Shown here: piece after piece, positions 35,464-38,112 of the stretch
How positions within the stretch are numbered: the first letter of the stretch is position 1
Layout: every line of letters begins with the position of its first letter
From: Alternaria dauci
Lineage: Eukaryota; Ascomycota; Dothideomycetes; Pleosporales; Pleosporaceae
Direction: 5' to 3'
Assembly (NCBI RefSeq): GCF_042100115.1
Contig: NC_091279.1
Coordinates: 558,001 to 622,000, forward strand
Length of the DNA: 64,000 nucleotides
The notes under the pieces: model-generated
What the model was told of the DNA's origin: nothing
Databases searched by the model: none
The model's input: only the letters and a program-made list of their open reading frames with translations
Program-made: the position numbers and the translations under genes

Positions 35464-35487
35464 GATCTTGCCCGGAATCGAACGATG
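35464..35487 (-). repeat. Partial copy of the tRNA-Gln T-arm and acceptor end
   Basis: On the minus strand it reads CATCG, then TTCGATTCCGGGCAAGA. This matches the spliced T-loop, T-stem and first acceptor bases of the tRNA-Gln at 35543-35730. The CATCGTTC prefix also resembles the inside of that tRNA's second intron. It looks like a truncated duplicate. Confidence 0.5.
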
Positions 35488-35524: not shown

Positions 35525-35531
35525 AAAAAAA
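35525..35531 (-). terminator. Candidate RNA polymerase III terminator
   Basis: Seven Ts on the minus strand, 11 bases after the discriminator base of the tRNA-Gln sequence, as expected for a Pol III stop signal. Confidence 0.5.
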
Positions 35532-35558
35532 GATGGTTTGAAAGGTCTTGCCCGGAAT

Positions 35559-35609
35559 CTAGTAACTCGGTTAGCAGCTGGAATTGAACGATGGAAGTGC
35601 AATTCTTAC
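35559..35609 (-). other. Spliceosomal-type intron 2 within tRNA-Gln (T loop, inside the B box)
   Basis: 51 bp with GTAAGA donor, GCTAACC branch-site motif 14 bp before the end, and TAG acceptor. It lies between tRNA positions 57 and 58. It contains its own B-box-like CGTTCAATTCC. Confidence 0.65.
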
Positions 35610-35669
35610 CGAACCGGGGTTGCCGGAAGACTCTGACGATGAATCAGAATCCGGAGTGATAACCGCTAC

Positions 35670-35719
35670 CTGATGGCTATTAGCGGGGGCAATTGAGAAG
35701 TGGATTGTCGAAGACGTAC
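35670..35719 (-). other. Spliceosomal-type intron 1 within tRNA-Gln (D arm, inside the A box)
   Basis: 50 bp with GTACGT donor, GCTAATA branch-site motif and CAG acceptor. It lies between tRNA positions 11 and 12. It shares CACTTC, TCAATT and GCTAA in the same order with intron 2. Confidence 0.65.
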
Positions 35720-35730
35720 ACTACAAAACC

Positions 35731-36263
35731 GATGCTGATTGAAATTCTAGTGACATTATATAGTAACAAAATTTATCGAGGATGCGCGTGACGCAAACGT
35801 TGAGGCACGAACGACGGGCGAAAATCTTTTTGGTTGGTTGTAGTGGGGTGGTGGGGGTGCTTGTCTACATGGCGGGGTTCTTGGGACCCGAGAATGTGCG
35901 TATGCGTCAGGGACGCGCCACAACTTGGTCTGAGTCTGCAGCTACGACGTGTTTCTGCCCAGTGTGCGAAGTAAACCCAAGCCGGTAGTAGCTGCGCGGA
36001 GACGCGGCGTTGCAAAAGTTGGTATGCAGTGTTGAGCTCATCTTCTATTCTCGAGATCCTACAGTGTGCATGATAGCACTGTGCTGCGTCTATTAATACC
36101 AACCAGCAGTAAACATACATGAGACGGGAGAATACAAGTCGCAAGGCTGCGCAATGCCCAGTGGCATGCCGCCTGGTATCACAAAGGAGCACCGCGAAAG
36201 AAGAACATGTAGCGCCATCGCTAAAAGAACACGACAAAAGAGAATGCTGCAACGGAGTGTCTA
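35731..36263. other. Intergenic region, no gene seen
   Basis: Between the tRNA-Gln locus and the permease 3' end. Short ORFs only. Confidence 0.45.
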
Positions 36264-38112
36264 TCAGCAAAAGAACTTGTACACCTTCTTCCACCTCGGC
36301 CACTTCTTCTTTTCTTCGCGCTCCTCTTCGATCAACGCTTGGATGTTCAGCTCGCGGATGCCAGTGACGAGATCCATGTTGTGCGATCGCACGACCGAAG
36401 TGCGGAACCAGAACTTGTAAGGAAAGTAAAAGGCAAGAGTGACTGGCAGTGCAAGATAGACGCTGAAGAAACGTTGGAGACGCTGTGATGTCGACAGCAC
36501 AGCCATGTCAATTGGAGCGACAGAAACATAGAACTGTGCAATGAGGACGAGAACATTGAGGATGAGACCGATGTAGGATCCGATGAGACCAGGTTGGGAG
36601 CGGAAGGCAAGCTCATCAAGGGTGTGTCCTTGCACCTTCCATCCCTGGCGGAAGCGGATGTGCGCCAGACAGATTGAGAGCCAAGTGAAGACAGCTGAGA
36701 GTGCAGACAGGGCAAGTAGCCAATTAAATGCGGCATCTTGTAGTTTGCGGTCCGCACCAGCAAGGAAAGCGAGAAGACCAAGGGCCGAGGCAAAAGCAAT
36801 GGACACAAGGGGACGACCCTGGCGGTCAATGTAGGCGAAGATTCTGGGGGCCTGATTCTGCTCAGCCAGTGCAGCGAGCGTGCGCGAAGAACCGTAGATG
36901 GAGGAGTTGCCGACCGAGAGAACAGCAATCATGATGACGGCGTTGAAGACGGAGGGCAGCCCCTGAATGCCTGCGTTCTGGATAGCGATGACGAACGGCG
37001 AGGCAATAGCATCAACATCGTTCTTGTCCTGGAGCAGCCGCGGATCATTGTAGGGAACCAACAGTCCGACAATGGTAAGGGAGACGATGTAGAACAAGGA
37101 GATACGCCAGAAGACCTGCTTAACAGCAGTGGGGAGAGACTTGCGCGGATTGGCTGTTTCCGCTGCAGCGAGACCAACAAGCTCGGTTCCAGAGAACGCG
37201 AATGCAGCGTTGACAAACACACTGCACAGGCCCTTGAAACCGTTGTTGAATGGGCCAGGGTCGCGCCAATACATGCCACCAATGTAGCCACCATCTGGGC
37301 CTCCGCCTATGTTGATGATGATACCAAGGATGATGAAGCCGATGACCGCTGTAATCTTGATAATGGCAAAGACGAACTCGGCTTCACCATACCCTTTGAT
37401 ACCAAACAGATTGATGACGACGATCAGGACCAGGAAGACGGCGACCCAGGCGTTGTTGTTGACCTTGTCACCATTCCAGTATTCGATTGTAAAAGTAGCA
37501 GCGACGATTTCCAGTGGTAGTACGACAAGCCATTGGAGTGCATAGTTCCAACCCATGGCAAAGCCCCATGCGGGATCCAGGAAGCGCGTCGAGTATGCGG
37601 AGAAGGAACCAGCGACGGGAAAGAGGACTGCCATCTCGCCCAGCGCATGGACGGTCGTGTACAGCATGACACCGACAAGGCAGTAGCAGATGACGAGCGA
37701 TGCCGGGCCACCGTTTGCTAGTGCTTGCCCCGAGCCGACGAATAGGCCGGTACCTGGGAAAGTCAGTCTGTGGACCCCGCTTAGCTGACGCATGCCAAAC
37801 CATACCTATGGAACCTCCAATTGCTATCATTTGCAAATGGCGACCTTTTAGTCTCCGCGCAAGTGGTGAGTTTGCAGTGTTTGCAGCAGCGGCCTCGGGG
37901 TCGAATACGTTCCCGTCGGCACCTAAGCTTCCCTTTGGCGTCATCGTCATGGCAAAATTCGGGTCCCGTTTGAAGCTCTCGATAACCCTCCTTCCCAGTC
38001 CATCCTGGTACCGTGATGATTCGCCAAAGTAGTCGGACCCTTGCGAGGCTCTTCCAAAACTCTTCTCGGTGCCGTACATGTCGTCGTCGATTGTCATGTT
38101 GGGTAGGCGCAA
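36264..38112 (-). CDS. Amino-acid permease of the fungal YAT (APC) family
   Basis: Plasma-membrane proton-coupled amino-acid transporter. Exons are 37806-38112 and 36264-37753 with a 52-bp intron that splits the first transmembrane helix at IGGSIG/TGLFVGSG, giving 598 residues. The family signature is complete: RRLKGRHLQMIAIGGSIGTGLF, GEMAVLFPVAGSF and FLDPAWGFAMGWNYALQWL. About twelve hydrophobic helices follow, then a cytosolic C-terminus ending KVYKFFC. The N-terminus (~95 residues) is hydrophilic, as in Gap1-like permeases. Met6 (38097) is an alternative start. Substrate range cannot be set from sequence. Nothing nearby suggests a catabolic cluster. Confidence 0.94.

Follow-up and report, generated by a model that had tools for sequence, protein, structure and literature searches.

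The stretch analysed here, 64,000 nucleotides (nt) of Alternaria dauci (NC_091279.1, positions 558,001 to 622,000; hereafter the window, which belongs to the contig that we label C8), carries on its minus strand, from 35730 down to 35543, a gene for a glutamine transfer RNA, tRNA-Gln(CTG), that is interrupted three times. The numbering of tRNA positions and the consensus motifs for the A box, the B box (GTTCRANNC), and the branch site are those that we take to be standard. Reading along the gene, one meets GGTTTTGTAGT, followed by a 50-nt GT-AG segment; next comes a middle exon with the anticodon CTG, itself interrupted after position 37 by an intron of 15 nt; a 51-nt GT-AG segment then leads to the 3' end. 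Exon 1 (35720..35730) supplies tRNA positions 1-11. Intron 1 (35670..35719, GTACGT...CAG) falls at position 11/12 inside the A box, a site common to all five Gln genes found, and has the branch-site motif CTAAT at 35679..35683. Exon 2 consists of a 5' part with the anticodon (35644..35669; positions 12-37), the canonical 15-nt tRNA intron (35629..35643; placed by ARAGORN on the spliced sequence), and a 3' part (35610..35628; positions 38-57). Intron 2 (35559..35609, GTAAGA...TAG) falls at position 57/58 inside the B box; it has the branch-site motif CTAAC at 35570..35574 and, at intron position 21-29 (35581..35589), the sequence GTTCAATTC, which has 7/7 letters of the B-box consensus. Exon 3 (35544..35558; positions 58-72) and the discriminator base T73 (35543) complete a mature tRNA of 71 nt plus T73.

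An earlier note, made on the letters alone, had proposed this architecture, and its coordinates, intron lengths, borders, branch motifs, and canonical intron are all as claimed, as is the splitting of the A box at 11/12 and of the B box at 57/58; the B-box-like sequence that it saw in intron 2 is a full box. It had also stated that all stems pair with one G-U. There is indeed a single G-U (T4-G69), but the D stem has only three pairs, the fourth position being T-T.

Automated searches miss the window gene in its unspliced form. ARAGORN reports no tRNA in the 64-kb window, in the unspliced gene, or after removal of only one segment. With the cut-offs set by Rfam itself the window has no match, and even at E up to 10 the unspliced stretch shows no tRNA. 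Once both GT-AG segments are removed, ARAGORN calls tRNA-Gln(CTG) with a 15-nt intron; for the spliced letters this program stands in for a covariance model. All segments of 42-65 nt in the window that fit GTNNG...CTRAY...AG, on either strand, were then removed, singly or in close pairs, and only one of the 279 resulting splice models (232 single, 47 double) yields a tRNA spanning the junctions, namely the window Gln gene. Twenty dinucleotide shuffles of the window yield none from 7,498 splice models (0/5,913 single, 0/1,585 double). The call of a tRNA-Gln(CTG) with two extra introns is therefore borne out, since removing both, and only both, yields a tRNA, and their spliceosomal type is supported by the GT-AG borders and branch motifs.

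The gene is not an isolated oddity. The D-arm stretch GTAGNGGTTATCAC matches the genome (10 contigs, 34.9 Mb) at exactly five places (control 0), all of them tRNA-Gln genes: three Gln-CTG (the window gene, L101 at C1:5416684, and L107 at C7:1801468) and two Gln-TTG (L133 at C2:3066655 and L134 at C4:2335142). All five cytosolic tRNA-Gln genes found have GT-AG introns at 11/12 and 57/58 plus the canonical intron, and in all five the spliced form gives ARAGORN a Gln cloverleaf with a Gln anticodon. Genome searches for an unbroken Gln arm, with up to two mismatches, returned for the D arm a single match at two mismatches (controls 5), which on inspection is no tRNA, and for the T arm no match (control 1). 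The count of intact tRNA-Gln(CTG) genes, which the earlier note had proposed as a check, is thus none by these D-arm and T-arm patterns.

Over the mature tRNA the three CTG genes do not differ (71/71 in all three pairs). Outside it their pairwise agreement is 41-44 of 52 columns for introns 1, 39-47 of 51 for introns 2, 7-11 of 15-17 for the canonical introns, and 31-36 of 63-66 aligned columns for the 60-nt upstream flanks. With its exons identical and its introns and flanks diverged, the mature Gln sequence is, by this comparison, under constraint. Between CTG and TTG genes both sides have changed at 4/20 stem pairs, none is broken, and all 60 pair cells are standard, in a comparison of three distinct sequences only that 8/500 shuffles match equally well. 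Cytosolic tRNA-Gln is indispensable to the cell. Because of this, and because no intact gene was found, the split genes must be the functional set, unless the assembly lacks an intact gene or such a gene is very divergent.

That proviso describes a rival explanation, in which the window gene and its relatives are pseudogenes and the intact tRNA-Gln genes are absent from the assembly or were missed by the patterns. In the portion of PMC4090602 available to us, D- or T-arm insertions in eukaryotic tRNA genes are mostly treated as pseudogenes, nucleomorphs and a red alga excepted. The pattern census did miss genes (an unsplit Val-AAC gene was met by luck in locus L107), and a Gln gene with more than two mismatches in both searched arms would escape it. 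Against this, all five Gln genes found share their split sites, their mature sequence is conserved, and they show compensatory changes; the assembly has 10 contigs for 34.9 Mb, and all four Pro-AGG genes found are split as well. We give this rival very little credence, and the silenced copy that the earlier note had considered is not supported, given the conservation of the mature sequences and the failure to find an intact tRNA-Gln gene.

In total, 18 split nuclear tRNA genes with 28 introns were found, among Gln, Lys, Pro, Ser, Arg, Gly, and Glu genes. Beyond the Gln genes they comprise four Pro-AGG genes with two introns each in the D arm, two Ser-GCT (intron at 13/14), two Glu-CTC, and one each of Lys-TTT (introns at 14/15 and 57/58), Lys-CTT, Gly-GCC, Arg-CCT (L054; intron at 53/54), and Pro-CGG (intron at 34/35, within the anticodon). 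After splicing, ARAGORN finds a tRNA in 18/18, and in 17 of them the anticodon is the expected one. The exception is L126, printed as Ser with GGA, which we read as GCT like its partner L127, the two mature sequences being identical at 82/82 positions (canonical intron placed by hand). Unspliced, one of the 18 is detected, misread as Thr. At the loci examined up to L131, ARAGORN reports 71 unsplit nuclear tRNA genes that differ in their upstream DNA (it misnames a few), so that about one in five resolved tRNA genes is split.

This census is pattern-based, covers one genome, and is incomplete (Phe and His genes, e.g., were not met). Four patterns combining a B box with a T-run returned 65, 68, 78, and 61 rows (controls 78, 58, 49, and 38); since the control counts are comparable, many rows are chance matches. 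In the 65-row set every place not already known was inspected, and in the other three sets 20 places in all, the rest being judged from their printed ends. Two patterns looked for a GT-AG insert at 57/58. The first returned 11 rows (controls 14), of which seven are tRNA genes and four, judged by eye, are not; the second returned 24 (controls 46), of which 10 are tRNA genes and the remaining 14 yield no tRNA on splice-and-test. An Rfam tRNA scan of the genome, in which 63 of 931 candidates were scored, gave Arg-CCT L054 alone among the split genes. A 71-nt DNA query against its own genome missed even known copies, so such a search is uninformative for exons this short. The split-Gln pattern has no matches in bacterial, archaeal, and viral contig sets, a result uninformative about fungi.

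Splice-and-test gave no model for L112, L128, and L129, and the strict donor and branch rule also fails L117, L119, L127, and L134; for these four, models were built by hand using GTAATT or GCATGT as donor, or CTAAA as branch motif. The first three (C1:347379-347625, C1:988725-988975, and C2:1393070-1393320) are tRNA-like, with good acceptor, D, and T arms by eye; their middles of about 95 nt hold no readable anticodon and, under the splice rule, no GT-AG candidate.

The 28 introns share the signals that one expects of messenger RNA (mRNA) introns. They measure 48-59 nt and comprise 27 with GT-AG borders and one with GC-AG; donors are GTAAGT (9), GTACGT (5), GTAAGA (3), others, and one GCATGT, and acceptors are CAG (20), TAG (7), and AAG (1). 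The motif CTAAY lies 9-13 nt before the end of 27/28 introns, compared with 28 of 4,246 AG sites in the window, and a branch motif is present in 18 of the 19 introns found without signal-demanding patterns. Two mRNA introns in the window, in the presequence-protease and permease genes, are 45 and 52 nt long (GTAAGC/GTATGG...CTGAC...CAG), and the tRNA introns fit them in length, in a comparison with these two only. The GC intron belongs to the Ser-GCT gene L127 (C10:482750-483000); at the same site in L126 the intron starts GTACGA.

One might instead suppose that the tRNA splicing endonuclease removes these inserts, as it does in red algae and nucleomorphs, and that their GT-AG look is incidental. 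The two long introns of the window gene lie at 11/12 and 57/58, away from the position 37/38 of the canonical endonuclease intron, and no conserved bulge-helix-bulge or other endonuclease-type structure was found: the consensus fold of the ten 57/58 introns shows the exon T stem alone. The Guillardia nucleomorph inserts are 3-24 nt long, and archaeal non-canonical introns are cut at bulge-helix-bulge motifs (PMC4090602, available portion). Together with GT/GC...CTAAY...AG in 27/28 introns at a narrow branch distance, these points leave endonuclease removal with a next to negligible chance. Self-splicing introns were rejected on length, about 50 nt.

Comparison with unsplit copies shows the empty site. 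Among the loci examined, Gly-GCC has four unsplit copies and one split, Glu-CTC three and two, and Lys-CTT five and one. The split Glu-CTC gene L106 (C5:1630348) equals the unsplit L093 (C8:627050-627600) plus exactly 54 nt, the other 98 bases, canonical intron included, being identical; the intron borders are therefore fixed without modelling. The extra 54 nt are a GT-AG intron with a B box, and the pair points to a recent gain, or a precise loss, of this intron. Resemblance between introns beyond their shared signals was found for Gly L104 with Glu L106 and for Glu L110 with Lys L132 (0/300 signal-preserving shuffles each), the only cross-family pairs, of 40, at no more than 3/300 shuffles; this likeness hints at spread from gene to gene.

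With regard to the internal promoter, the introns at 57/58 differ from those at other sites in what they bring. A full B box is present in 7/10 introns at 57/58, starting at intron position 21-25, and in 0/18 introns at other sites. Shuffles of those seven introns hold such a box in 0.4-3.4% of cases, and the B box was not part of the patterns that detected the 57/58 introns. In Arg-CCT and Pro-CGG the exon B box survives, and the intron has no full box. The A box is lost in eight split genes (Gln 5, Lys-TTT 1, Ser 2), and all four Pro-AGG genes keep 7/8 A-box letters. Upstream, TATA-like hexamers precede 43 of the 71 unsplit tRNA genes, compared with 170 of 4,000 random 75-mers from the window; the window gene has the TATA-like element TATATAAT (35755..35762, minus strand; about -32 to -25). 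Such elements may compensate for a lost A box. Downstream, T-runs of at least four follow 17/18 split genes within 45 nt, and T-runs follow 70/71 unsplit ones; L133, for which that count covered 31 nt, has T6 from 35 nt on. In the window gene a T7 run (35525..35531, minus strand), a candidate terminator for RNA polymerase III (Pol III), begins 12 nt past tRNA position 72.

The earlier note had concluded that the gene cannot use its Pol III promoter normally. This holds for the A box, which is split and has no better-than-chance substitute; of the B box, likewise split, a full copy stands within intron 2. Among the options it offered, use of the box inside intron 2 is the one we favour, because a full box recurs at the same place in 7/10 introns at 57/58 and in none of the 18 others. 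The option of synthesis by RNA polymerase II (Pol II) followed by splicing is less likely. In its full form, a capped Pol II precursor would be spliced by the spliceosome and trimmed at its ends by RNase P and RNase Z, and the intron B box would be a relic. Spliceosomal introns do normally come out of Pol II transcripts, the A box is destroyed in eight split genes, and some 0.5 kb upstream of the window gene the same strand carries an amino-acid permease gene. The T-runs behind all 18 split genes, like those behind nearly all unsplit ones, and the restriction of full B boxes to introns that split the exon B box speak for Pol III instead, and the U6 gene is a precedent for Pol III together with an mRNA-type intron (PMC10484740, in part). 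We consider transcription by Pol II unlikely.

We therefore read the window locus, with a probability of roughly 85%, as a working cytosolic tRNA-Gln(CTG) gene that would be made by Pol III, use the B box of intron 2, and be spliced by the spliceosome. The reading starts from what the letters hold: the introns, their signals and recurrence, the conservation of the exons, the B boxes carried by introns, and what looks like an absence of intact Gln genes. From these we infer Pol III transcription, use of the intron box by TFIIIC, and spliceosomal splicing. In the proposed scheme, the intron-2 box, rather than the split B box, would recruit TFIIIC, the upstream TATA-like element would help to position TFIIIB, and Pol III would transcribe the gene up to the downstream T-run. 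Both GT-AG introns would be excised by the spliceosome, and the canonical 15-nt intron by the tRNA endonuclease. The recurrence at 57/58 might be explained if an intron can bring a B box about 25 nt away from the old one, so that the gene stays active.

The intron boxes might, on the other hand, have no promoter role at all: if the introns were born by local duplication of the T arm, the box would be a leftover of its source. Intron and exon boxes are alike, and the L104/L106 and L110/L132 introns resemble each other beyond shared signals. There is, moreover, a partial second Gln 3' end, CGTTCGATTCCGGGCAAGATC, about 60 nt downstream of the window gene (35464..35484, minus strand), with an unbroken B box and its own T-run behind, which resembles an intron-type box fused to exon 3; downstream of the other two CTG genes no such fragment was seen within 220 nt. 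Yet at position 21-25 the box has retained all seven consensus letters in introns that have otherwise diverged, and an origin by duplication is compatible with present use as a promoter. A box without any such role seems to us doubtful, if conceivable.

Several observations weigh against a Pol III gene driven by its intron box, and they should be kept in mind. Four families account for the seven full boxes (Gln-CTG 3, Glu 2, Gly 1, Lys-CTT 1), and since some of these introns may share an origin, the seven do not count as independent. The other three 57/58 introns have no full box (L133 6/7, L111 6/7, and L134 5/7), so that among the Gln genes the full intron-2 box is found in 3/5; L133 has a perfect B box in its 3' trailer, and the best alternative in L134 is a 6/7 match in intron 1. 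The split Gln, Lys-TTT, and Ser genes have no intact A box left in their DNA, and the best unspliced match is no better than in shuffles. TATA-like hexamers precede 7/18 split genes, a count for which the upstream stretch was short in some; L133 and L134 add two more by eye. The splice signals are partly a product of selection, nine of the 57/58 introns having been met through patterns that demand GTNNG, a branch-like motif, and AG, and the exon borders were chosen by us to restore a tRNA. Finally, the two full-length U6 copies of this genome are uninterrupted.

Among known systems, the closest precedent is the U6 gene of fission yeast. In Schizosaccharomyces this gene has an mRNA-type intron that holds a B box (Frendewey et al. 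1990; Tani and Ohshima 1989, both cited in PMC10484740), and its splicing is reported to be impaired in pre-mRNA splicing mutants (Potashkin and Frendewey 1989, cited there too). The genes described here likewise combine an mRNA-type intron with a tRNA-type B box, transcription by Pol III being in our case a deduction. They differ from U6 in that the hosts are many tRNA genes whose spliced products are tRNAs, that the introns cut the very B box of the exon and replace it, and that two kinds of splicing would act on one precursor. In this genome the full-length U6 copies are L135 (C1:5350710-5350809) and C1:5438006-5438105, with two weaker U6 matches besides; a TATA-like stretch lies upstream of L135, and on the strand of this gene the 3.1 kb examined contain no perfect B box. 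According to the available part of PMC5832005 (2017), frequent interruption by an intron was at that time known, among small structured RNAs, for U3 and U6 alone. The genes here share with fungal U3 small nucleolar RNA and U6 the presence of mRNA-type introns in non-coding RNA genes, and differ in that the hosts are tRNA genes.

Eukaryotic tRNA genes are described as limited to one intron in the portion of PMC8450103 at hand. The window gene has such an intron, of 15 nt at 37/38, and departs from the canonical picture in its two long introns at 11/12 and 57/58 with GT-AG borders and branch signals. Several introns per gene, in the D and T arms, are a likeness to the tRNA genes of archaea, nucleomorphs, and Cyanidioschyzon; unlike in archaea, no bulge-helix-bulge is conserved in the 57/58 introns. 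The available portion of PMC4090602 has no word starting with "spliceosom". In the open-access literature (subscription papers and preprints lay outside the scope), spliceosomal introns in nuclear tRNA genes are not named in the titles and abstract openings found. An intron-borne B box, known before from U6, in essential tRNA genes and in many at once is something that we found nowhere in that literature.

A few further loci may be recorded. The neighbouring general amino-acid permease gene occupies 36264-38097 of the window (minus strand), has one short intron, and lies about 0.5 kb upstream of the tRNA gene; its product is 96% identical to an Alternaria tenuissima protein, and the presequence protease of the window is 98% identical to a protein of Alternaria sp. 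RS040. A repeated element ending in CGTTCRAATCGCGTTRTTACTTYATCTTTT, B-box-like with a T-run, was met in L116, L130, and ten further places; two copies inspected with ARAGORN contain no tRNA, and the element is perhaps a tRNA-derived repeat. Near the end of a nuclear contig (C3:3344209-3399162 of this genome, our G000) lies a tRNA set of what we take to be mitochondrial type, with the same tRNA-Asn near both ends, either an assembly join or inserted mitochondrial DNA.

For those who annotate fungal genomes, these genes would explain how a tRNA finder can miss a whole isoacceptor family, and for research on intron gain they would offer clean present and absent pairs such as Glu-CTC L106/L093. 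The splicing of tRNAs and that of mRNAs are taught as the work of two machines, each with its own substrates. In these genes a single precursor seems to require both, and for tRNAs that the cell cannot lose. An intron would be tolerated in an internal promoter by a simple route, the promoter box being brought along: B-box introns, if the reading is true, cut the promoter and replace the box in one stroke, and the invaded gene stays on. Whether cytosolic Gln decoding in this lineage is wholly dependent on the spliceosome, with B-box-carrying introns having spread between tRNA genes by insertion at 57/58, we regard as evenly balanced. The making of the split tRNAs, and hence translation, probably depends on the spliceosome, and translation would then be coupled to spliceosome activity.
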